Shown here one piece after another: positions 4,482 through 52,947 of a stretch of DNA of 64,000 bases. The position numbers and the translations under genes are program-made. Origin of the DNA: an uncultured Clostridia bacterium (GTDB lineage: Bacteria; Bacillota; Clostridia; Oscillospirales; Oscillospiraceae); the NCBI GenBank assembly GCA_946061515.1, contig CAMGRL010000002.1, positions 34,847 to 98,846 on the forward strand, read 5' to 3'. The notes under the pieces are model-generated. The model ran no database searches. It worked only from the letters and a program-made list of their open reading frames with translations, and was not told the DNA's origin. Within the stretch, counting starts at the first letter, position 1; each line of letters opens with the position of its first letter.

Positions 4482-4514
4482 AAAAGTCCGAAAAACTGTT
4501 TTTTTCGGACTTTC
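4482..4514 (-). terminator. Rho-independent terminator of the PrpR-type regulator
   Basis: aaagtccgaaaaa-ctg-tttttttcggactttc hairpin with T tract, directly after stop at 4519. Confidence 0.7.
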
Positions 4515-4518
4515 ATTT

Positions 4519-6420
4519 TTATTCAATTCCGAGTTCGCGTAATCGTCTGTATAATGTCGGTCTGCTGATATTCAGCATTGCGGCCGCTGCGGTTTTGTTC
4601 CCGCCGCACTTTGCCATGACACGTTCGATCTCCGTATCGCTCGGCGCAAGAATGCTGGTTTTCCGGCTGTTTTCCTCCGGAGAAGGCGCTTCATAATTCT
4701 GATAAAGCAAGTCAAGCACCTCGTTGCTTTCTATTTTTCCCCCTTCATTTGTGACGGTAAGGCGCTCTGCAACGTTTGACATTTCGCGTACATTCCCGGG
4801 CCATCGGTATTCCGTCAGAAGCCGCATGGCCTCAGGCGTAACTTTCAGGGTAGGACGGCCGAATTTTTCGGCGAATACTTCCAGCATATACTCCAGCAGC
4901 TTTCGGGCGTCGCCTTCCCGTTCACGCACCGGCGGGAGATGCAGCTCAAGAACATTGATGCGGTAAAACAGATCTTCCCTGAACTTTCCTTCCTGAACCA
5001 TTTTGCGCAGATTTTTGTTTGTCGCCGCAATGATTCGCACATTAACAGGAATGATCTTATCGTCGCCAAGGCGCATTACCTGTTTTTCTTCCATAACGCG
5101 CAGCAGCTGGGCCTGCATCGGCGTATCGATCTCGGCAATTTCGTCCAGGAAAATGGTGCCGTTGTGCGCCAGTTCAAACAGGCCGACCTTACCGCCGCGC
5201 TTGGCTCCGGTAAACGCGCCCTCTGAGTAGCCAAACAGCTCTGATTCCAGAAGGCTCGTTGGCAGCGTCGCACAGTTTATGGCCACAAACGGGCCGTTTG
5301 CCCGCAGGCTGTGGTTGTGGATACTCTGCGCGAACAGTTCTTTTCCCGTTCCGGATTCGCCGGTTATCAGCACAATGGAGTCTACCCCGCTGTATCGTTT
5401 TGCTTTGCGTATGGCCTCGCGCAGTTGGGGGCTGTCTCCGATGATCTGATCAAATTTGTATTTTGCTGTCAGTCCGCGCTCAGCCAGCCGGGCGCGCGTA
5501 CTGCTCTCAATGGATTGAATATATTCCACGCTCTGCAGCTTTGCCACAACCGCGTTGACCACTTTGTCGCTTTTTACGGCGCGCAGGCTGCAAACATATT
5601 TTTTCCCCCCGCACTCCTGCAGGTCATACGGGATCGCTGTTCCGGTTTTGATGACCGTATCGACGCTGGAGCTGAGCTGCCCGTCTGTCAGCGGTTTGCC
5701 GAGCTGATCCTCGCTCTTTACACCGAGTATTTTACAGGCCTTATGGTTAAGCTGGACAACGTTTCCCAAGCCGTCAAAGAGGATCAGCGCATCCCCGATC
5801 ATTTCGAAGAGGGTATTCAGCTCTTCGTTTTTTTTGGCCTCAACGCGGATCTGAGAAACGATTTTCATTGACTCGTGCAGCGCCTCTGCTATCTCATCGC
5901 TGCCCGAAGCCATGACCACTCTGGCCAGACCCGCGTTTTCCGCATAGCGTGTTTCATCAAATCCGCCGACCAGGGCCACAACGCCATCGCGTCTGGCCTG
6001 AAAAGCAACGCGCGGGTAGTCCTCCGGAACGCTCGCCAAATAGTACTTTATGTTCGTTCCCAGCACACTGTCAAGCATGCGGCTCTGGTCGATCATATAT
6101 TGCGTGCCCGCCAGCCCAACGCAGCCATAGCGCCGGCTCGCCTCAACGCAGGTCTGCGTGATGTTGCTCATGGTAAAGGGGATCTCAATGACCGGTACCT
6201 TCAAATCGGCCACGCGCAAATGGGCTATATATCCTGCCCGTGTGACCAGCACCTTTGCGCCGTTTTCCACCATACGCTTTGCTGCGGCGATGCCCTCCTG
6301 ATAATCTGTAACCCGCATGACGTCTATTTCGCCCGGTCTGAACTTCTGGATCGCATCCTGGGCTGCATTATAGCTCGATTCCAGCTCAAGTATTACCCCT
6401 ATCTCTGCCATGCGGCTCAC
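4519..6420 (-). CDS. Sigma-54-dependent transcriptional regulator, PrpR N-terminal + PAS + AAA+ + Fis HTH
   Basis: ITGESGTGKELFAQSIHNHS Walker A, ELFGYSEGAFTGAKRGG (GAFTGA), C-terminal HTH GGNKTAAAAMLNISRPTLYRRL, PrpR-N-like N-terminus. Confidence 0.95.
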   Translation of the reverse strand: MSRMAEIGVILELESSYNAAQDAIQKFRPGEIDVMRVTDYQEGIAAAKRMVENGAKVLVTRAGYIAHLRVADLKVPVIEIPFTMSNITQTCVEASRRYGCVGLAGTQYMIDQSRMLDSVLGTNIKYYLASVPEDYPRVAFQARRDGVVALVGGFDETRYAENAGLARVVMASGSDEIAEALHESMKIVSQIRVEAKKNEELNTLFEMIGDALILFDGLGNVVQLNHKACKILGVKSEDQLGKPLTDGQLSSSVDTVIKTGTAIPYDLQECGGKKYVCSLRAVKSDKVVNAVVAKLQSVEYIQSIESSTRARLAERGLTAKYKFDQIIGDSPQLREAIRKAKRYSGVDSIVLITGESGTGKELFAQSIHNHSLRANGPFVAINCATLPTSLLESELFGYSEGAFTGAKRGGKVGLFELAHNGTIFLDEIAEIDTPMQAQLLRVMEEKQVMRLGDDKIIPVNVRIIAATNKNLRKMVQEGKFREDLFYRINVLELHLPPVREREGDARKLLEYMLEVFAEKFGRPTLKVTPEAMRLLTEYRWPGNVREMSNVAERLTVTNEGGKIESNEVLDLLYQNYEAPSPEENSRKTSILAPSDTEIERVMAKCGGNKTAAAAMLNISRPTLYRRLRELGIE

Positions 6421-34254: not shown

Positions 34255-35034
34255 ATGAACCAGGCTGAAAAAAGAGAATTTCTCATCCGGCGGCTGCTGG
34301 ATGAGAACGGGCGTTATAGCGGAATGGAAGTCCCGGCAGACGCATATGAACAGAAGCGCATGCTGCGCTCTCTGATGAACATCCGCCGCCCCGGAGCCAT
34401 CGACGCCGGATTTCTGACCGTGCAGGACGAATATCTGCGTCAAGAGATTGAAGCGTCAGGCATCACCAGCCTGGCCGATTTGGAGCCGGTTTGCGGGGAT
34501 TTGTACCTCTGGCAGGGCGATATCACCCGGCTGAGGTGCGGCGCCATCGTCAACGCCGCAAACAGCGGTATGACGGGCTGTTATGTACCCTGCCACGCCT
34601 GCATCGACAACTGCATCCATACCTTTGCGGGCGTCCAGCTCCGGCTGGATTGTGCCCGGCTCATGGAACAGCAGGGCCACGAGGAGCCTACCGGTCAGGC
34701 CAAGATCACCCGGGCCTACAACCTGCCCTGCGACTATGTGCTGCATACCGTCGGCCCCATCATTGAGGGCCGCGTGAGCCCGGAAGATGAGCGTCTGCTG
34801 GCCTCCTGCTACCGTTCCTGTCTGGAACTGGCCGGGGAAAACTTAGTTACAAGTATTGCGTTCTGCTGCATCTCCACCGGTGTGTTCCGTTTTCCCAATC
34901 AGCGGGCCGCCGAGATCGCCGTGGAGACAGTGAAGCGGTATAAAGCGGAAACCCAAAGCGAAATGAAGGTGATTTTCAATGTTTTCAAAGACCTGGACCT
35001 CGAAATCTACCAGCGATTACTGGCAGAAAATTGA
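34255..35034 (+). CDS. Zn-type macrodomain protein-ADP-ribose hydrolase
   Basis: 259 aa; DITRLRCGAIVNAANSGMTGCYVPCHACIDNCIHTFAGVQLRLDC...VLHTVGPI. Confidence 0.92.
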   Translation: MNQAEKREFLIRRLLDENGRYSGMEVPADAYEQKRMLRSLMNIRRPGAIDAGFLTVQDEYLRQEIEASGITSLADLEPVCGDLYLWQGDITRLRCGAIVNAANSGMTGCYVPCHACIDNCIHTFAGVQLRLDCARLMEQQGHEEPTGQAKITRAYNLPCDYVLHTVGPIIEGRVSPEDERLLASCYRSCLELAGENLVTSIAFCCISTGVFRFPNQRAAEIAVETVKRYKAETQSEMKVIFNVFKDLDLEIYQRLLAEN

Positions 35035-35848
35035 GCGGCTGAAGGCTGAGATACAAGGCGCGGACGCTATCCTCATCGGCGCGGGCGCCGGCCTTTCAAC
35101 CTCCGCCGGTCTGACCTACAGCGGCGAGCGATTTCTGAAATACTTCTCCGACTTCCATGCGAAATACGGCATTACCGATATATATTCCGGCGGTTTCTAT
35201 CCCTTTTCCTCTCTGGAGGAATACTGGGCCTGGTGGAGCCGGCATATCTACTATAACCGCTACGATCTGACGCCCGGAAAGCCTTATGCGGACCTGCTGG
35301 CGCTGGTCAGGGACAGAAATTACTTCGTTCTGACCACCAACGTGGACCATCAGTTTCAGCTGGCCGGGTTTAATAAGGCGCGGCTGTTCTACACCCAGGG
35401 CGATTACGGCCTCTGGCAGTGCAGCAAGCCCTGCCATCAGGCCACCTATGACAACGAGGCCGCTGTCCGCCGGATGATCGCGGAGCAAGCGGACATGCGT
35501 GTTCCCTCCGAACTGATCCCCCGCTGCCCCAGGTGCGGCAGGCCCATGACCATGAATCTGCGCTGTGACGACACTTTCGTTCAGGACCAGGGCTGGTATG
35601 CCGCCGCCCGGCGATATGAGGATTTCCTGCAGCGGTACAGGAACGGCCGCATCCTGCTTCTGGAACTGGGCGTCGGCGGCAATACGCCCGGAATCATCAA
35701 AATGCCTTTCCTCCGCATGGCCGCCCAGAACCCCAAAGCCACCTACGCCTGCCTCAACCTGGGCGAGGCCTTCACCATGAGCGGGCTTGAAGAGCAGTCC
35801 ATCCTGTTTGACGCCGATATCGGTAAAGTGCTGAGCGATTTGAGATAA
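34979..35848 (+). CDS. SIR2 family NAD-dependent protein (class M-like sirtuin)
   Basis: 289 aa; ILIGAGAGLSTSAGLTYSG, LTTNVDHQF, CPRCGRPM zinc motif; overlaps the macrodomain gene by 56 nt. Confidence 0.9.
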   Translation: MFSKTWTSKSTSDYWQKIERLKAEIQGADAILIGAGAGLSTSAGLTYSGERFLKYFSDFHAKYGITDIYSGGFYPFSSLEEYWAWWSRHIYYNRYDLTPGKPYADLLALVRDRNYFVLTTNVDHQFQLAGFNKARLFYTQGDYGLWQCSKPCHQATYDNEAAVRRMIAEQADMRVPSELIPRCPRCGRPMTMNLRCDDTFVQDQGWYAAARRYEDFLQRYRNGRILLLELGVGGNTPGIIKMPFLRMAAQNPKATYACLNLGEAFTMSGLEEQSILFDADIGKVLSDLR

Positions 35849-39822: not shown

Positions 39823-40172
39823 GATGGGCAGGATTAAGAAAGCAACATTATGGAAGAGCTTTTGCCGTCAAATCATGAACACCTTGAGCGAATTAGTAAA
39901 GGTATCAAGAATGCGCAGAAAATGATACTGATGCAGAACAAGAAAATCTGCTCAATTTGCAGTTGTGTCTTTAAAACCATTATTCAGGACGGGCTAGTGA
40001 GTTGCTGGATTTCAATATTGCAATGTTCGTTACATCTCTAAATAAGAATGAAAAGATTCCATAGTCGGACATCTTGGTTTTGTGCCCGACATGCCATGAG
40101 CTAGCATATTCATTTCTAGGGTTGTTTGAAGAACAGCACCTACAATAATCAGTTGAAGGAAGATAAATTGCT

Positions 40173-43100
40173 ATGTACAACTACGAATGGGATGCCGAAA
40201 CAGGCGGGTACATCCTTACTACTAAAATTACGGGGGTGACCAAGGAAGTCCGCCCGGTATTTGAAGAAGAATTGAAATTTCTGGAGCTTGACAAAAATTA
40301 TGGCTGGGACATCCCCGAATGTGTTGAGCCTCTTATGTGGGCAGAGGGTAGACGCTATTTTTATCGCGGCGTGCTCGTTGCAGAAGCTGTTGGTGGTGGA
40401 CTATATTCCATGCCCATAATGAAAAATGTTGTCCGAAATCTGTCCCTTAAGCCAGTTAATATCCAAGCAATGGTTGCAAAAAATGAGGATCTTATGAACG
40501 GTCTTGTTCAGCGCACATTGCACTTTGTTTATGACACATATAAACAATATGAAGATCGCGTGAGTCTTTTTTATGTGGCATTTAGTGCGGGTAAAGACTC
40601 AATGGTGATGCTTGATATCGTACAAAGAGCGTTACCACACGATTCGTTTGTTGTTGTCTATGGTGATACGACGATGGAGCTTAATGCAACATATAAAGCC
40701 GTTGAAGATGCTAAAAAACGTTGGCCGCAGTTGGAATGGTATACAGCGAGAGCTCCATTTAATGCAATTGAATCTTGGGGGAAAATTGGATATCCTGCAC
40801 GACGATTAAGGTGGTGCTGTAGTGTTCATAAGACCGCCCCATCAATTCAAAAGCTGCGCGAAATATATAAAGAGAAATATCCTGAAAGTAACAAACCCTT
40901 CAAGGTCATGGTTTTTGATGGTATCCGCGCAGAAGAAAGCGACGCGCGTGCTGCCTATTCAATGATTTCCGAGGGCAACAAACACGCAGTTCAAGCAAAT
41001 TGCAGCCCAATTCATGAATGGAATACTACTGAGCTTTTTATTTACATGTTTGCAAATGATATCCCGATTAACGAACTATATCGGTATGGTTCTCATAGAG
41101 TCGGGTGCAAACTTTGTCCAATGGCTTCTGAATGGTATGAATGTATATTAAATCATGTTTATCCCGACCAAATAAAACCTCTTCTTGATATTGTGGATGG
41201 TTCAACAAAAAAGAGCTTTGGCAGTCAACAGGAAAAAGAACAATATTTGGAAAGTGGCGGTTGGAAATCCCGTGTTGGCGGAAAGGACATATCTCTCGGC
41301 GAAAATAAAATCACCGAGATAAAAAAAACTGACAAGATTGTTTTCATTATTAAAGGGGGAAATTATAAATGGGATAAATGGTTACCTACGGTTGGAGACT
41401 TAGTCAAAACCGGAAGGAACTCCTATTCAATACGATATCATGAACTATCCATGGAGTTCGATGTTACGGAAGAGAATGATTCAACAATAGTTACCGTACC
41501 AATTCTAATAAAGTCAAAGACAAGCATCCGTTTCATGTACTTGTTTAAGAATGCTTTATTCAAAGCTGCGTATTGTGAGAATTGCCGTGAATGTATGGCG
41601 GAATGTGCATTTGGAGCATTGACCATTACCGATGATGATATACAAATTAAAGGATGCCGGCATTGCGAATCGTGCCTTGATTCTTCAAAAGGATGTATTG
41701 TCGCAAGGTCACTGGGAATTACAGGAGAGGGTAATAATATGAGTGCTTTAAATATCAGCAGATATCAGAACTTTGGTTTCAGGCAAGAATGGCTTGATCT
41801 TTATTTCGAGTTAGGTGATAATTTCTGGAACAATGACCGCATGGGAAAATACATGGTCATTGGTTTCAAAACCTGGCTGAAAGAATCGGGCATTACAGAA
41901 AACAATGCCATCACTACGTTGGGGAACAAGCTGAACCATATCGGGGTTGAATCGCCTGTTACATGGGGTATTATTTTTGCGAATCTTGTTTACAACTCAC
42001 CAATTATAAACTGGTATGTAAGGAAAATCGATCTAAACCGAGCTGTTTCCCATGATGAAATGGTCATTCTTCTTGGTGACGCGTATTCACCGACCGTAAA
42101 GAAAAACGCATTGAGTTCATTAAAGGAAACAATTCGCCTTTCCCCAATCGGTGGTCTTTTGGGACAAGGAAAATGCGAGATGAAGGGTAAGGTTGTAACG
42201 TCAATTACTCGTACCGGCTGGTTTGAGCCTGAGCCGCTCGTCATGCTCTATACCCTTTATCTATTTGCGGAGCATAGCGATGGTCTCTACAGCTTTACTT
42301 TCAGTGAATTGATAGATGACAGTGATGACAGAGAAGCAATAAGTCCCAACCTGATTTTCGGAGTGAGCAGTGAGATGCTGCGCCCCATCCTTCAGGGGCT
42401 GGCTCACGATTACTCAGATTATATTCAGGTTGATTTTAACAACAATCTGATGGAGAATATTTTTCTACTCTTGTCTGCTCTTCACACAAAAAACGGAAGC
42501 GTAAGCCGTTCAGGAACAACATCATTGTTGCGTCCGACTGCAAAGAATATAAACGCCTGCTTTGTAGGTACGCCTATCGAAAACAAAGTAAACGAGTATC
42601 TGAATTTACTATCTTCCAAGGGCATTTTGGGGCAAGTTGAAGATTCCAACGATGTACTCTATGTTATTACTGCTGTGGCGATTGACAAAGATCGGATGGA
42701 AAAGATGGAAGAGGATGCCCGTAAAACGTTCTCATTCGATAAGATCATCACTGATCCTACATATGCAGTCACGAAGCAGTTTGTGCCGAACGGCTTCATG
42801 GCAGAACGGTGCTCAATTCAAATTATTACTCCCAGCAATGCACGAACTGTTGCAACCAAATATAGTCCCGAAAGCAATAAGATTGCTTTATTCTATCTTT
42901 TTGCTAAAAACGAAGCTGAGCAAGGGAAGGCCAGTGACGCAATCAAAAGCGTTTATTCCGAGATTTCGGAGCGTTGCATTATTGTTGATTTTACATCGCT
43001 GCCTTTTAGTGAGGACCGGTATGAGCGATTCATCAAGAGCAAGGCAAGGGAAGGGGAAATGCTATTACACCGCCTCGATCTTTCGGGTATATGCATTTCT

Positions 43101-43277
43101 ACTGGCTCAGCGTGTGATAGCAGGAACACACAAGTTTCTCATGTATTGCGCGCAATGAAGGTTCCCGAAGAATATGCTCTCGGAACAATCCGCATCTCGC
43201 TGGGAAAAGAAAATACAGAAGAAGATATAGAAAGAATAGCCAATGTACTGATAAAAACGCTGAAATTAATTCAATAA
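40173..43277 (+). CDS. PAPS-reductase/DndC-like PP-loop + ferredoxin + DUF4007-like + cysteine desulfurase C-terminal tail fusion
   Basis: 1034 aa; YVAFSAGKDSMVMLD PP-loop, IRAEESDAR, CENCRECMAEC...CRHCESCLDSSKGC, YQNFGFRQEWLDLYFELG, and C-terminal LDLSGICISTGSACDSRNTQVSHVLRAMKVPEEYALGTIRISLG. Confidence 0.85.
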   Translation: MYNYEWDAETGGYILTTKITGVTKEVRPVFEEELKFLELDKNYGWDIPECVEPLMWAEGRRYFYRGVLVAEAVGGGLYSMPIMKNVVRNLSLKPVNIQAMVAKNEDLMNGLVQRTLHFVYDTYKQYEDRVSLFYVAFSAGKDSMVMLDIVQRALPHDSFVVVYGDTTMELNATYKAVEDAKKRWPQLEWYTARAPFNAIESWGKIGYPARRLRWCCSVHKTAPSIQKLREIYKEKYPESNKPFKVMVFDGIRAEESDARAAYSMISEGNKHAVQANCSPIHEWNTTELFIYMFANDIPINELYRYGSHRVGCKLCPMASEWYECILNHVYPDQIKPLLDIVDGSTKKSFGSQQEKEQYLESGGWKSRVGGKDISLGENKITEIKKTDKIVFIIKGGNYKWDKWLPTVGDLVKTGRNSYSIRYHELSMEFDVTEENDSTIVTVPILIKSKTSIRFMYLFKNALFKAAYCENCRECMAECAFGALTITDDDIQIKGCRHCESCLDSSKGCIVARSLGITGEGNNMSALNISRYQNFGFRQEWLDLYFELGDNFWNNDRMGKYMVIGFKTWLKESGITENNAITTLGNKLNHIGVESPVTWGIIFANLVYNSPIINWYVRKIDLNRAVSHDEMVILLGDAYSPTVKKNALSSLKETIRLSPIGGLLGQGKCEMKGKVVTSITRTGWFEPEPLVMLYTLYLFAEHSDGLYSFTFSELIDDSDDREAISPNLIFGVSSEMLRPILQGLAHDYSDYIQVDFNNNLMENIFLLLSALHTKNGSVSRSGTTSLLRPTAKNINACFVGTPIENKVNEYLNLLSSKGILGQVEDSNDVLYVITAVAIDKDRMEKMEEDARKTFSFDKIITDPTYAVTKQFVPNGFMAERCSIQIITPSNARTVATKYSPESNKIALFYLFAKNEAEQGKASDAIKSVYSEISERCIIVDFTSLPFSEDRYERFIKSKAREGEMLLHRLDLSGICISTGSACDSRNTQVSHVLRAMKVPEEYALGTIRISLGKENTEEDIERIANVLIKTLKLIQ

Positions 43278-43368: not shown

Positions 43369-43803
43369 TCAAGCAAGCTTAATAATTGTTTTCTTCTGCC
43401 GCTCTGCCATTTTGGCGAACTGAGCTGCACCGCCCCAGGCGTGTGTGATATAAGTCACTACAAAATCAGACTGACTGAGCATCCATTTGTTGCGCCAGCT
43501 GATGGCAAAACGGGGCGGAACGGTTTCAATTCCCTCCGGCACCATGGTGTCGGAATAATCCGGGCAGCCACATTCCCCTTGCTTCACAGGTAAACGTTCC
43601 AAGACCACAGCATAACAAATGTGGGGATACTCCGACGAGACATCCCTCAAAACATCCCTCACCATTGCGTCAAAGGCTCCCTGCCGTCCAACATAAAATG
43701 TATCTACCTTGCCATTCTCAATCAGATCAATCACCGCCCTGCGCAGTTTTGGTTTGACAGTATCAGGGCAGTCCCGGTGTCCAAAGAAAGTACAGGCAGC
43801 CAT
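43369..43803 (-). CDS. SLOG/YpsA-like (DUF1273-type) protein
   Basis: MAACTFFGHRDCPDTVKPKLRRAVIDLIENGKVDTFYVGRQGAFDAMVRDVL. Confidence 0.75.
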   Translation of the reverse strand: MAACTFFGHRDCPDTVKPKLRRAVIDLIENGKVDTFYVGRQGAFDAMVRDVLRDVSSEYPHICYAVVLERLPVKQGECGCPDYSDTMVPEGIETVPPRFAISWRNKWMLSQSDFVVTYITHAWGGAAQFAKMAERQKKTIIKLA

Positions 43804-43818
43804 ATACAGCCCCTCCTT

Positions 43819-43920
43819 GTGTGGGATATATCGCATATTATAGCACTTTTCTAAAATTTGCGATATATCCCACACGATTTATCGCAAATTTGGTTAGACT
43901 TTAATTGCGATATGTCGTAA
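43819..43920. promoter_or_regulatory. Divergent operator region with four TGCGATA-type repeats
   Basis: Perfect 17-nt inverted repeat GTGTGGGATATATCGCA (43819-43835)/TGCGATATATCCCACAC (43859-43875), plus cgatttatcgcaaa (43875-43888) and ttgcgatatgtcg (43905-43917). Confidence 0.7.
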
Positions 43921-46672: not shown

Positions 46673-47164
46673 GTGGGGTCGCTTTCCCCTGAATCCCGCG
46701 AAAAAACGGCATCACTCTTGGGGTCAGGCCCCGGAAAGGAGACCATTTTGAGCAAAAAAGAAAAATTCGCCCTCTATCTGCCGCCGGAGAAGAAAGCGGA
46801 GCTGGAACGGCGCTGTCATGAGGACGGCAGCCGCAGCGCCACGGCCTTCGTGGAAAACGCGGTGGATTTTTATCTGGGCTATCTCAGCGCCGGCGGCGCG
46901 GATCTCTTTCTGTCCAAAGCCCTGCAGTCCTATCTGGACGGCAGACTGGGGATGCTGGAAAAGCGCCTGTCCGCTATGCTGTTCAAGCTGGCCGTGGAAA
47001 ACGACATGACCATGCACATCATGGCGGACAGCTTCCAGCTGGACGAGGATTACCTGCGCCGCATGCGTTCCCAGAGCGTCAAAAACGTGAAGCAGACCAA
47101 CGGTCAGCTCTCCTTTGAGCGCATCGCCCGCAGCGCTGCCTGGGAGGATGAATGGCAAGACTGA
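46673..47164 (+). CDS. Relaxosome accessory protein (ribbon-helix-helix/MobC-like)
   Basis: SKKEKFALYLPPEKKAELERRCHEDGSRSATAFVENAVDFYLGYL; immediately upstream of and overlapping the relaxase. Confidence 0.65.
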   Translation: MGSLSPESREKTASLLGSGPGKETILSKKEKFALYLPPEKKAELERRCHEDGSRSATAFVENAVDFYLGYLSAGGADLFLSKALQSYLDGRLGMLEKRLSAMLFKLAVENDMTMHIMADSFQLDEDYLRRMRSQSVKNVKQTNGQLSFERIARSAAWEDEWQD

Positions 47165-49113
47165 TTCTCAAAAGTCCGTACATCCGCTGCGGCGGTTCCG
47201 GCGAAGCCACCGGCTACATGTCCTATATTGCCACGCGGGAGAACGTGCAGCTCATCGCCGACGACCGCCCTGCCACCCGCCGGCAGACGCAGCTGATCCA
47301 AAAACTCCTGCAGGACTTTCCGGACACAGCATCCCTCTACGAGTATGAGGACTGGACAGCGTCGCAAACCAAGCGTGCCGCCTCCGCCCTCATCTCTACG
47401 GTGCTTCATCTCCACCGGGATACCATGGCCCAGTCGGACATCTACATGAAGTACATTGCCCAGCGTCCCCGGGCGGAGCGTCTGGGGACCCACGGTCTGT
47501 TCGGCGACGAGGACAATGTGGATCTGGAGCAGGCCATGGCTCAGCTGGAAAGCTACACCGGCAGAGTATGGACGCACATTATCTCCCTGCACCGGGAGGA
47601 TGCAGAACGGCTCGGCTATGACAACGCTCCGGCCTGGCGGGATTTTCTGCGCACGCACCGCAACGAGATCGCCGGGGCGATGCACATCCCGCCGGGTAAC
47701 TTTCGCTGGTACGCCGCCTTCCACGACGAGGCCGATCATCCCCATGTGCATATGATGGCCTGGTCCTGCGACCCGGCTCAGGGACAGCTTGACCGGGACG
47801 GCATACGGAAGATCCGTTCCGTTTTGACCAATGACCTCTTTCGTCATGAGCTGCTGCATGTCTATGAGCAGAAGTCCCAGGTCCGGGATGAGCTGGTGCA
47901 GCAGGCACGCCGATCCGCGGCGGAGCTGATCCGGACCATGCAGGTTGGCATCTGTGATTTTCCGGAGGCCGAAGCCCTGTTCCGGGAGCTGGCTATGCAG
48001 CTGGAAACGGTGAAAGGGAAAAAGCAGTACGGCTATCTCCCCAAAAAGCTCAAGGCTCTGGTCGATAACATCGTGGATCAGATGCAGAGCCTCCCGCCTG
48101 TCAGCGAATGCTATACGCGGTGGCAGGCGCTTCAGGATCAAGTGCAGGATTTTTATTCCGAAAAGCCTGCGGAGCGTCTGCCGCTGTCCCGGCAAAAAGA
48201 ATTCCGCGCAGTGAAAAACGCCGTCATTCAGGAGGCGGAGCGGATCCGCTGTGGGGAGCTCAGTTTTGAGGATGAGGACGGACCGAAGGAAGCGCCGCCG
48301 GATGAACACGGCGCTTCCTATCCCTATCAGTACCTGAGTGAGATCATCGACGATCCTTCCGTTCCGCTGGACCTGCGGGACGAGGCAGTCGGTCAGCTGG
48401 AGGCGCTGGCGGAGGGCGGCGACATCCTGGCACAGTATCGTATGGGACAGCTTTTCCGCGACGGCGGCATTGTGATCCCGGACGTACGCCGGGCCTCTGC
48501 CTGGTTTCGCAAAGCCGCAGAGCAGGGGCAGCCGGAAGCACAATATGCGCTGGCCAGGCTGCTGCTCTCCGCCGACCCGGAACTGCGCGACCCGGAGGAG
48601 GGATTGACGTGGCTGAAAGCCGCCGTGAGAAACGGCAGCAGCTATGCGGCCTGCCGTCTGGCAAAAGAGTATCTGAAAGGGGAAAACCTGACGCGGGATG
48701 TGCAGGCGGCCATGGACTGCCTCTCCCCTGCCGCTGCCGCCGGCGACCAGTACGCCCAGTACCTGCTGGGCAAGCTCTATTTGGGCGGCGACGGTGCGGA
48801 ACGCGACCGAGACCAGGCTGCCTATTGGCTGGAGCGCTCTGCCGCGCAGGGAAATCCTTATGCGGAGTTTCTGCTGGAGCGTATCGACGACCCCAATCCG
48901 CCCTCGGTGATCCTGTCTGTCACCCGGCTGCTCCACCACATGTCCCGGATTTTCCGGGACAACATGCAGACGGCCTGCGCCCCTGCCGGTATGCAGATGG
49001 ATCAGAAGCGGCGCAGGAAGCTTCAGCAAAAGCGGATTGCCCTGGGACACAAGCCCGACGACCACGAGGAGCCCCAAACCCGGCAGGAGCAGAGCCAGCA
49101 AATGGGCTGGTAA
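47152..49113 (+). CDS. MobP-type relaxase with C-terminal Sel1-like repeats
   Basis: 653 aa; FRWYAAFHDEADHPHVHMMAWS (HxH-type relaxase motif); repeated AQYRMGQLFRDGG/AQYALARLLL/AACRLAKEYLKGE/AQYLLGKLYLGGDG Sel1 repeats. Confidence 0.88.
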   Translation: MARLILKSPYIRCGGSGEATGYMSYIATRENVQLIADDRPATRRQTQLIQKLLQDFPDTASLYEYEDWTASQTKRAASALISTVLHLHRDTMAQSDIYMKYIAQRPRAERLGTHGLFGDEDNVDLEQAMAQLESYTGRVWTHIISLHREDAERLGYDNAPAWRDFLRTHRNEIAGAMHIPPGNFRWYAAFHDEADHPHVHMMAWSCDPAQGQLDRDGIRKIRSVLTNDLFRHELLHVYEQKSQVRDELVQQARRSAAELIRTMQVGICDFPEAEALFRELAMQLETVKGKKQYGYLPKKLKALVDNIVDQMQSLPPVSECYTRWQALQDQVQDFYSEKPAERLPLSRQKEFRAVKNAVIQEAERIRCGELSFEDEDGPKEAPPDEHGASYPYQYLSEIIDDPSVPLDLRDEAVGQLEALAEGGDILAQYRMGQLFRDGGIVIPDVRRASAWFRKAAEQGQPEAQYALARLLLSADPELRDPEEGLTWLKAAVRNGSSYAACRLAKEYLKGENLTRDVQAAMDCLSPAAAAGDQYAQYLLGKLYLGGDGAERDRDQAAYWLERSAAQGNPYAEFLLERIDDPNPPSVILSVTRLLHHMSRIFRDNMQTACAPAGMQMDQKRRRKLQQKRIALGHKPDDHEEPQTRQEQSQQMGW

Positions 49114-49189
49114 AAGCAAAAAGTTTCTCTGGATATTATCGCAAAAGTGTGGTAGTTGTTTGTGTTGCAAAATCAGGAGGTGACGCTCA

Positions 49190-50391
49190 TGGCAAAACGC
49201 AGACCGGCCGGTGACGGCATGGTGCGAAAGCGCGACGACGGCCGCTGGGAGGGCCGCATCGTTGTAGGCCACAAGAAAAACGGCGATCCCATCTTCCGCC
49301 ATGTCTATGCCCGGACGCAGAAGGAGCTGATGGACAAGCTCCATCAGAACATCGAGAGCTATCACGACGTGGAGCTGACAGAGGAGAGCCGCATGAGCCT
49401 GTCGGAATGGCTGGACCGCTGGCTGGAGGAATACAAATCCGGCACCCTCCGCCCCAGCACGGTGGAAGGATACCGCCGCTACATCAACCTCTATATCAAA
49501 CCGGTACTGGGTCACAAGCAGATGTCCCTCATCACCACACAGGATGTCCAGCGCATGTATCAGCGGCTGAAAAAGGAGGGTCGCATCCGCGAACATCCGG
49601 AGTATGGCTCTCAGCTCTCCGACTCTATGGTAAACCACATCCATTCCTTGCTCCATGAGGCGATGGCGGACGCGGTACAGGCCCACATCATCCCCAAAAA
49701 TCCCACGGAAGGGGCCACCGCGCCCAAGCCAAACTACAAGCCCAAACAGATTCTGAACGACCGTGAGCTGGACACTTTCATGGAGACGATCCGGCAGGAC
49801 AAGGTCTGGTACGACTTCTTCTATACGGAGCTGACCACCGGACTTCGCCGGGGCGAGATCTGCGGGTTGATGTGGAAGGATTTCGACGAGAAGAGCGGCA
49901 GGCTGAAAGTGTGCCGCACACTCCACAGCAAAAAGGCCGGCATATTCGCGCTGGGCGACACCAAAACAAGCAAAGGCATGCGCACGATCATCCTGCCGGG
50001 AAGCACGGCGGAGCTGCTGCGGCAAAGGAAGAAAAAGGCCCTCAGTCAGTGGATCTTTCCGGACCCTGTCAGTCCGGAGCTGCCGGTACCCCCCGCCTCG
50101 GCCTACCGGCGGCTGAAGGTGCTGCTCCAGCAGGCCGGGCTGCCCAGCATCCGCTTCCACGATCTGCGCCACACCTTCGCCACCCATGCGCTCACCAGCG
50201 GCGTGGACGCCAAGACCCTGTCCGGGATTCTGGGGCACACCAACGCCTCCTTCACCCTGGACACCTACACCCACGTGACCTCAGACATGCAGAAAACCGC
50301 CAGCAACATCGTGGGCGGATTCATGGAAGACCTGTTCGGGAAGGAGCTGAAGCCATGGCAAGAAAGCGAAAGAATGGAGAAGGAACCGTAA
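49190..50391 (+). CDS. Tyrosine recombinase/integrase 1
   Basis: MAKRRPAGDGMVRKRDDGRWEGR arm-binding domain; TGLRRGEICGLMW, HDLRHTFATHALTSGVDAKTLSGILGHTNASFTLDTYTH catalytic motifs. Confidence 0.96.
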
Positions 50392-51857
50392 GGCTGCGCC
50401 AGGACGGGCGCTGGGAGGGGCGCTGTGTTATCGGCTATAATGACAACGGCTACCCCAAAACCAAAAACGTCCTTGCCAAAACAAAACGGGAGTGCGTGGA
50501 AAAGCTGCGGCAGCTCCGGGAGGAGTGCGGCAGCGCCAAGTCGGACAAGATCCGGCCCGATATGTGCTTTGGGGACTGGATCACCTATTGGTACGAAAAT
50601 CACTGCAAGCCCAAGATCCGACTCACCACCCAAGCCAACTACGAAGACCGCATCCGCCTGCACATCATCCCGGAGATCGGCCAGATCCCGCTGAACAAGC
50701 TGACCCAGAACGACCTGCAGCAGTTTTACGGACGGCTGAAAAAGAACGGCCGGAAGTCCCACACCGAGCTTTATGGTGAAGGGCTGTCCGACCGGATGGT
50801 GCGTATGTGTCACGCCAGCTGCCGCTCGGCGCTGGAAAAGGCGGTGCAGGATGGGCTCATCCGCACAAATCCGGCCAGCGGCTGCAAGCTGCCGCCCAAG
50901 AAGGCGCGGGAGATGCAGGTGCTGAACCGGGACGAGCTTCAGCGCCTTCTCATCCAGGCCAGGGAGGAAGGCTACTACGAGCTGTTCCTTCTGGAGCTGG
51001 CCACCGGCCTGCGGCTGGGCGAGCTGATGGCGCTTCAATGGGATGACCTGAACTTCAAAACCGGTGTGCTGACCATAAACAAGCAGGTCTACGAGGTGAA
51101 AGGCCAGCTGATCCTCAACCAGCCGAAAACCAAAGCGTCCATCCGCAAGCTGGTCCTGCCGCGCGCATTGTTGGCGGTGCTGAAAGAGTATAAGAAAACC
51201 GTGGACTCCCGCTGGATGTTCCCCTCCCCGGTGAAGGAGGACCGGCCCCTCACACCCGGCATGGCGGAACGGCGGCTCAGGCTCATTCTGCAGCACGCCG
51301 GCTGCCGGCATGTCCGCTTTCACGACCTGCGGCACACCTTTGCCACGCTGGCGCTGGAAAACGGCATGGACGTGAAGACCCTCTCCGCCTTGCTGGGCCA
51401 TGTGTCGGCGGCTACCACGCTGGACATTTACACCCACATCACCGATGATATGCAGCGCGCAGCCGCCGCCAACATCGACCGGGAAATCGGCAAGGCAGAG
51501 CCGCAGGCGAGTGCATTGACGCCGGAGCAGAAAACGTCCCGGCCGGAGGCGACGGGCATGACCGATTTCAAGCCCTATAAAGGGCGCATGCGCAAACCCG
51601 GCACCGGCTGCATCAGCAAGATCAACGACCACCTGTTCGAGGGGCGCTACTCCCCCAACTGGATCGACGGCAAGAAACACGCCCGCAATGTCTACGCCCA
51701 CACCCGGGAAGAGTGCGAGGAGAAGCTGAAGGTGCTCATCAAAGAGATGCAAGCCGAACTGGCGGAGCTGAAGAAGCAGCAGGCAAAGGCCGAAGCGGAG
51801 TCTCAGCCCCCGGAAGCCGGGAAAAGAAAACCAGGGAAGAAAAATTCACCGGCATAG
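50355..51857 (+). CDS. Tyrosine recombinase/integrase 2 with C-terminal second arm-binding-like domain
   Basis: MARKRKNGEGTVRLRQDGRWEGRCVIG...; TGLRLGELMALQW; HDLRHTFATLALENGMDVKTLSALLGHVSAATTLDIYTH; ORF opens artefactually at 49872 in the same frame. Confidence 0.95.
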   Translation: MARKRKNGEGTVRLRQDGRWEGRCVIGYNDNGYPKTKNVLAKTKRECVEKLRQLREECGSAKSDKIRPDMCFGDWITYWYENHCKPKIRLTTQANYEDRIRLHIIPEIGQIPLNKLTQNDLQQFYGRLKKNGRKSHTELYGEGLSDRMVRMCHASCRSALEKAVQDGLIRTNPASGCKLPPKKAREMQVLNRDELQRLLIQAREEGYYELFLLELATGLRLGELMALQWDDLNFKTGVLTINKQVYEVKGQLILNQPKTKASIRKLVLPRALLAVLKEYKKTVDSRWMFPSPVKEDRPLTPGMAERRLRLILQHAGCRHVRFHDLRHTFATLALENGMDVKTLSALLGHVSAATTLDIYTHITDDMQRAAAANIDREIGKAEPQASALTPEQKTSRPEATGMTDFKPYKGRMRKPGTGCISKINDHLFEGRYSPNWIDGKKHARNVYAHTREECEEKLKVLIKEMQAELAELKKQQAKAEAESQPPEAGKRKPGKKNSPA

Positions 51858-52094: not shown

Positions 52095-52619
52095 ATGTGG
52101 ATCGACGGCATTGATGAAAAGGACAATCAGATCATCGCCCTGCTCCGTGAGGACGGCAGAATGTCTTACAGCGACATCAGCCATCGGATCGGACTGTCCA
52201 GAACCGCGGTAAAAAACCGAATCTCCGCTTTGGAAAAGGCCGGGATCATCTGCGGTTATCGCGCCGTGGTCGCACTGCAGCCGTCTCCCCAGGCAATGAC
52301 TTTTGTGGTAAACATCGAAACCGAACCGGGGCATTTTGAGGAAGTCCGGGATGCGCTGACGGAAGAAGAGCAGGCCATCACCGTGGTGCAGACCACCGGG
52401 CGCTGTCACTTAATGGCCGTCTGCATCGCCGCTGACCGGCAGGATCTGCGGGATTTTCTGAACCGAATGTACAAAAAGGTCCCCGGAATATTGGGCATAA
52501 ACGCCAATACGGTGATCGACGTTGCCAAAGGATCATTGCTGCCCGACAATACGTTGATTGAGGTGCGTGCAAATGACGAAAAACGAACTGGTGCAGAAAT
52601 TAGCGCAAAGAACCAATGA
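52095..52619 (+). CDS. Lrp/AsnC family transcriptional regulator
   Basis: 174 aa; IDEKDNQIIALLREDGRMSYSDISHRIGLSRTAVKNRISALEKAGIICGYRAV. Confidence 0.92.
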   Translation: MWIDGIDEKDNQIIALLREDGRMSYSDISHRIGLSRTAVKNRISALEKAGIICGYRAVVALQPSPQAMTFVVNIETEPGHFEEVRDALTEEEQAITVVQTTGRCHLMAVCIAADRQDLRDFLNRMYKKVPGILGINANTVIDVAKGSLLPDNTLIEVRANDEKRTGAEISAKNQ

Positions 52620-52947
52620 ATGCGGCTTGATCCCGGCAATACATGAGTTGATTGGAAACAACGTGGAGGTGGAAATCGGCTTTTCTGCGGAGGCCTGCGC
52701 AATGGACATTGACGAGATCAATTTCTCCGTCCGGGCAATGAACGCCCTGCGCCGGGCCAAGATTTTCACCCTCGGCGATGTGATCAAGGCCCTCTCCGCC
52801 GAGGATTTAATCAAAATCCGGAATCTGGGGAAAAAGAGCCTGAATGAAATCAAAAGCAAAATGCTGAGCTTCGGTTTTGCGCAGTTAAGCCCCTCAGCCC
52901 AGCGGGCATTCTTTGAAGATTTGGTAAGCAAAAACAGCATCTGTTGA
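52573..52947 (+). CDS. Stand-alone RNAP alpha-CTD-like protein
   Basis: MTKNELVQKL...MDIDEINFSVRAMNALRRAKIFTLGDVIKALSAEDLIKIRNLGKKSLNEIKSKMLSFG; overlaps the Lrp gene end. Confidence 0.82.
   Translation: MTKNELVQKLAQRTNECGLIPAIHELIGNNVEVEIGFSAEACAMDIDEINFSVRAMNALRRAKIFTLGDVIKALSAEDLIKIRNLGKKSLNEIKSKMLSFGFAQLSPSAQRAFFEDLVSKNSIC

Follow-up and report, generated by a model that had tools for sequence, protein, structure and literature searches.

A 1034-codon frame joining brxP to remnants of brxC and a desulfurase gene is probably a deletion scar in a degenerate BREX type 4 locus

In a 64,000-nucleotide stretch of DNA from an uncultured Clostridia bacterium (contig CAMGRL010000002.1; hereafter the window), a single open reading frame combines parts of several proteins of sulfur chemistry. 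An initial annotation had read this frame as a collapsed, minimal single-polypeptide module of DNA phosphorothioation-like modification or defence, which raises the question of whether it encodes a new multidomain enzyme or the remains of a known system. Here, we found that the frame is very probably a deletion-scar fusion in a degenerate BREX type 4 locus, produced by an accidental in-frame join during recent decay. It is most likely that ordinary gene decay of a known system is involved and no new enzyme.

Examination of the letters of the window confirmed one uninterrupted frame of 1034 codons at 40173-43277 (+), which is composed of one nearly complete protein (BrxP) and two truncated pieces, one of BrxC and one of a cysteine desulfurase (Table 1). 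The N-terminal three quarters correspond to BrxP of BREX type 4, and thus the proposed link to phosphorothioation-type defence held. The PADLOC model PDLC02510 matched this segment over nearly its full length with 776 bits, and identity was 67% to BrxP of the Pseudoruminococcus massiliensis locus (L032; aligned BrxP positions 1-766) and 68% to G601. As had been proposed, the segment contains a PP-loop PAPS-reductase domain (Pfam PAPS_reduct, aa 135-316, E=3.3e-25) and a ferredoxin-like, 4Fe-4S-type Cys cluster (aa 468-508), which is invariant across the aligned homologues. The third domain that had been named, a DUF4007-like region, stood in part: it is the matching part of BrxP in models PDLC02510 and PDLC02511, whereas Pfam DUF4007 gave no match to the window protein at E<=1. 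The same Pfam model matched just one of 10 aligned homologues (E=0.0071), and a search of PDB profiles gave none for this region, the matches obtained being PAPS reductases, ferredoxin-type proteins and a sulfate adenylyltransferase subunit. The assignment of the region was therefore based on the BrxP models and the published description of BrxP, whose usual form is a PAPS reductase fused to DUF4007 (PMC12839542). Such a fusion is standard in BREX type 4 and has already been published. Nearly all invariant BrxP residues are kept in the window, the sole departure being the PP-loop, where a nearly invariant Gly is replaced by Ala (SAGKDS versus SGGKDS in 11 aligned homologues). The full-length match, the PP-loop and the conserved Cys positions place the segment in the BrxP family; it departs from the family in SAGKDS and in the normal last ~16 residues, the only part of BrxP that is missing, which are replaced in the frame.

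The two following pieces are different in nature. About 196 codons of brxC remain, 50% and 44% identical to BrxC of loci L058 and L059, respectively, and the PADLOC BrxC model matched weakly at aa 732-849 of the frame. Judged by eye and from general family knowledge, this fragment presumably lies outside the Walker motifs and carries no ATPase motifs. The annotation had listed an ATPase among the missing partners; no working copy was indeed found, but it had overlooked this fragment inside the frame. The desulfurase tail that it had recognized is literally the last fifth of the enzyme: aa 957-1031 match the last 74 positions of both SspA and DndA in PADLOC, and in Pfam the end alone of the aminotransferase class V domain was detected (aa 960-1021). 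This tail is 58-73% identical to the tails of intact BREX type 4 desulfurases, with the lowest value for L032 (aligned range 280-381). Again by eye and from general family knowledge, we take the catalytic-Cys loop STGSACDS to be present and the part bearing the PLP-binding lysine to be absent.

Table 1. Features of the BREX type 4 remnant and of the genes upstream of it (positions in the window)
Feature	Position	Strand	Evidence and remarks
Regulator-like protein, full length, 1082 aa	36574..39822	+	Pfam; L032 gene directly upstream of brxP is 32% identical over the full length
Zinc-ribbon (HNH-like by eye) gene remnant, decayed	39859..40145	+	tblastn with the intact 229-aa protein L058:14895-15581 (-)
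brxP, nearly complete	40173..42464	+	aa 1-764; PADLOC BrxP E=8e-234, profile positions 1-762 of 779
Deletion joint 1, in frame	42461..42468	+	brxP aa ~765 to brxC aa ~485; comparison with L032 BrxP and BrxC
brxC internal fragment	42465..43052	+	aa 765-960 of the frame; ~aa 485-682 of 1404; 47% identical to L032 BrxC, E=6e-58
Deletion joint 2, in frame	43047..43058	+	brxC aa ~682 to desulfurase aa ~312; pglZ and brxL lost; comparison with L032, L048 and L058
Cysteine desulfurase, C-terminal ~74 residues	43053..43277	+	aa 961-1034; PADLOC SspA and DndA positions 298-371

In the current view of intact BREX type 4 systems, sulfur comes from the desulfurase and is placed in the DNA backbone by BrxP, with BrxC, PglZ and BrxL as the other core modules, and a phosphorothioation-type role has been described (PMC12839542). 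A passage of PMC11931770 that cites Yuan et al. reports that brxPCZL of type 4 makes phosphorothioates. PglZ was present in all surveyed type 4 systems, BrxL in 96% and a cysteine desulfurase in 56% (PMC12839542). The window resembles these systems in the PAPS-reductase, ferredoxin-type Cys region and DUF4007 of its BrxP and in the presence of a companion regulator, and differs from them in that brxC and the desulfurase gene are reduced to pieces, pglZ and brxL are absent and everything is fused to brxP. Among the components of a working type 4 system, BrxP was found, whereas in the 81% complete assembly a full BrxC ATPase, PglZ, BrxL and a full cysteine desulfurase of the system itself were not. 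The pieces of the frame also have counterparts in SspABCD, namely SspD (PAPS reductase), SspB (DUF4007), SspC (ATPase) and SspA (desulfurase) (PMC12839542). In PADLOC, the tail clearly matches SspA and the protein weakly matches SspD; however, the N-terminal part is best matched by BrxP (776 versus 26 bits for SspD), SspD, SspB and SspC are not the best-matching families, and the intact relatives of the window carry PglZ and BrxL, the marks of BREX type 4. With DndABCDE it shares a DndA-type desulfurase and the PAPS-reductase superfamily of DndC, but the DndC match is weak (E=1.6e-4, PADLOC) and the intact relatives have BrxC, PglZ and BrxL, apparently in place of Dnd genes.

The most informative relative was the L032 locus (NZ_OLMR01000006.1:5515-21702), found by a genome scan. 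It contains separate genes for a 1106-aa regulator, BrxP (782 aa), BrxC (1404), PglZ (772), BrxL (497), a cysteine desulfurase (385) and a WYL regulator, and PADLOC confirmed BrxP, BrxC, PglZ, BrxL and a DndA/SspA-type desulfurase. It shares with the window the regulator-brxP arrangement and similarity in all four proteins, whereas its genes are intact, separate and followed by the WYL regulator, with no zinc-ribbon gene between regulator and brxP. The order regulator-brxP-brxC-pglZ-brxL-desulfurase, with all genes separate, was observed in L032, L058 and L059; L033 has an identical order, including the regulator, up to BrxL, and L034 shows the order in part. Loci L046-L050 contain the full set of BREX genes and the desulfurase, separate and in the same order, without that regulator. 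The window segments keep the order brxP, brxC, desulfurase of the intact loci. In the window, a SLOG/YpsA-like protein (43369-43875 (-)) was suggested by a weak Pfam match below the cut-off, and a protein that looks similar is encoded upstream of the BREX locus of L032 (4617-5087).

The fusion itself appears to be confined to the window. Among 301 genomes of the family, the window alone gave a match running through both joints, and in 396 genomes of the order all remaining BrxP frames have the usual length; thus, the search for homologues with the same fusion, which had been proposed as a check, returned none besides the window. About 17 distinct full-length BrxP homologues in the fetched loci end 13-32 aa past the BrxP match. 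In plasmid and phage records, just BrxP-like, PAPS-reductase or desulfurase-only matches were obtained, and viral contigs gave no matches to the fusion. No other examined BrxP has the extra C-terminal parts, and a conserved fusion family was therefore rejected. Nor is the proposed collapsed, minimal module supported: its PAPS-reductase-DUF4007 core is normal for BrxP, and the extra parts, seen in no other examined BrxP, are truncated remnants of the brxC and desulfurase genes.

Two genes upstream of brxP belong to the same story. The regulator-like protein contains an RNA polymerase alpha-CTD (aa 168-215) and sigma-70 region 4 (aa 428-458) according to Pfam, and has no clear PADLOC family. Homologues lie directly upstream of brxP in L032, L033, L058 and L059, and none was detected in L046-L050, so that it may be regarded as a candidate regulator of one BREX type 4 subgroup. 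The 350-bp gap between this gene and brxP holds the remnant of a zinc-ribbon gene, whose intact form occupies the same place in L058 and which has a homologue directly upstream of brxP in L050 as well (4508-5098 (+)). The remnant consists of two colinear pieces (39859-39960 in frame +1 and 39999-40145 in frame +3); it is frameshifted, contains an in-frame stop and lacks the first ~127 codons. The two tblastn HSPs of 30 bits each have a combined E=1.2e-8, and the best of 2000 codon-block shuffles reached 25.8 bits. The intact protein had no Pfam match above the cut-off in either L058 or L050; it is possibly an accessory nuclease or regulator of BREX type 4. Being frameshifted and interrupted by a stop, the remnant gives the locus a mark of decay independent of the two deletions. 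Elsewhere in the window, a 129-aa frame at 52558-52947 resembles, by eye, a stand-alone RNA polymerase alpha C-terminal domain, and at 34255-35848 a gene for a macro-domain protein (PF01661) overlaps a frame that looks SIR2-like by eye and has no Pfam match, possibly a macro/sirtuin pair.

Codon-level comparison placed joint 1 near 42,465 and joint 2 near 43,052, and the missing DNA, sized on L032, amounts to ~1.5 kb at the first and ~7 kb at the second. The ancestral locus very probably had the order regulator, zinc-ribbon protein, brxP, brxC, pglZ, brxL and cysteine desulfurase. One deletion of ~1.5 kb would have joined the end of brxP to about codon 485 of brxC, whereas in another, of ~7 kb, pglZ and brxL would have been lost and about codon 682 of brxC brought up against the final fifth of the desulfurase gene. 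As both junctions would by chance have preserved the frame, a single one of 1034 codons is left. We infer that these deletions occurred in the organism itself. GC content is 0.41-0.43 across the three segments, and GC and GC3 are similar throughout; the region of 36-43.3 kb forms a low-GC island in a GC-richer neighbourhood. The BrxC fragment is 32.3% identical to L033, and L032 BrxC is 29.2% identical to L033, so the fragment is no more diverged from L033 than its intact counterpart, which fits recent deletions. Similar composition, the low-GC island and the undiverged fragment together are consistent with recent deletion within an acquired BREX type 4 locus. Just downstream of the remnant, 47152-51857 holds a MobL relaxase gene followed by a tyrosine integrase gene (Pfam) and, judged by eye, by another frame that resembles this integrase; together they would form an integrative mobilizable element.

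The genome comprises 118 contigs and is 81% complete, and missing genes may sit in its gaps. Within this assembly, neither PglZ nor BrxL was matched by queries that each matched 4 of 4 control genomes, and the BrxC query, which matched 3 of 4, found the fragment only. Relocation of these genes elsewhere in the genome was rejected on this basis. A full NifS-like cysteine desulfurase gene on contig C22 is probably a housekeeping one.

Assembly artefact and retained function are both less probable than decay. It is unlikely that the joints were created during metagenome assembly, with the organism holding an intact BREX type 4 locus in which the assembler skipped brxC, pglZ and brxL. The fragmented and incomplete state of the genome would favour such an origin, as would the seamless, in-frame nature of both joints and the lack of accelerated divergence in the BrxC fragment. 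However, two separate skips would be needed in one locus, no other contig carries the genes that would have been skipped, and the zinc-ribbon gene upstream has decayed independently. No long direct repeat was seen around the joints either, in an inspection confined to the sequence that remains there and so blind to the deleted partners.

Very unlikely, in our view, is a functional fusion in which selection maintains BrxP with a BrxC domain and a sulfur-carrying Cys loop, acting either as a minimal enzyme of phosphorothioation or to regulate or inhibit BREX type 4. It is weakly favoured by the in-frame state of both joints, for which the chance is about 1 in 9. In addition, the frame is open, without stops, through both of them; BrxP is nearly intact, the catalytic-Cys loop of the desulfurase is retained and the adjoining regulator gene is full length. 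Against this, the examined BrxP homologues include a single case of the fusion, ATPase motifs of BrxC and the PLP-binding part of the desulfurase are missing, the PP-loop Gly is substituted, the upstream gene is decayed, and the BrxC and desulfurase fragments give no sign of evolving as a unit. More improbable still is that a single chain of BrxP, BrxC module and Cys loop makes phosphorothioates with sulfur delivered by the housekeeping desulfurase, or inhibits BREX type 4. An ordinary protein of sulfate assimilation or tRNA thiolation without a defence role has a practically negligible probability. Its PAPS_reduct domain and PP-loop occur in such proteins too, but the BrxP score over nearly the full profile is far above those of PAPS reductases, and NCBIfam models for assimilation and tRNA modification scored far below their cut-offs. 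The nearly full-length BrxP match and the position of the intact relatives in BREX operons refute this reading.

For the organism, decay of the BREX type 4 locus implies that modification and exclusion should be dead, because PglZ and BrxL have been lost, the BrxC piece lacks ATPase motifs and the desulfurase piece is unable to bind PLP; judged from its gene content, the locus is presumably inactive. Should the fusion prove to be active, it would represent a phosphorothioation machine of unusually small size. The locus adds one more example of BREX type 4 decay, and cautions that, in the annotation of a single genome, what looks like a new multidomain enzyme can be the product of an in-frame deletion within a defence operon. 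It also shows that brxP of one BREX type 4 subgroup adjoins genes for a companion regulator and an accessory zinc-ribbon protein.
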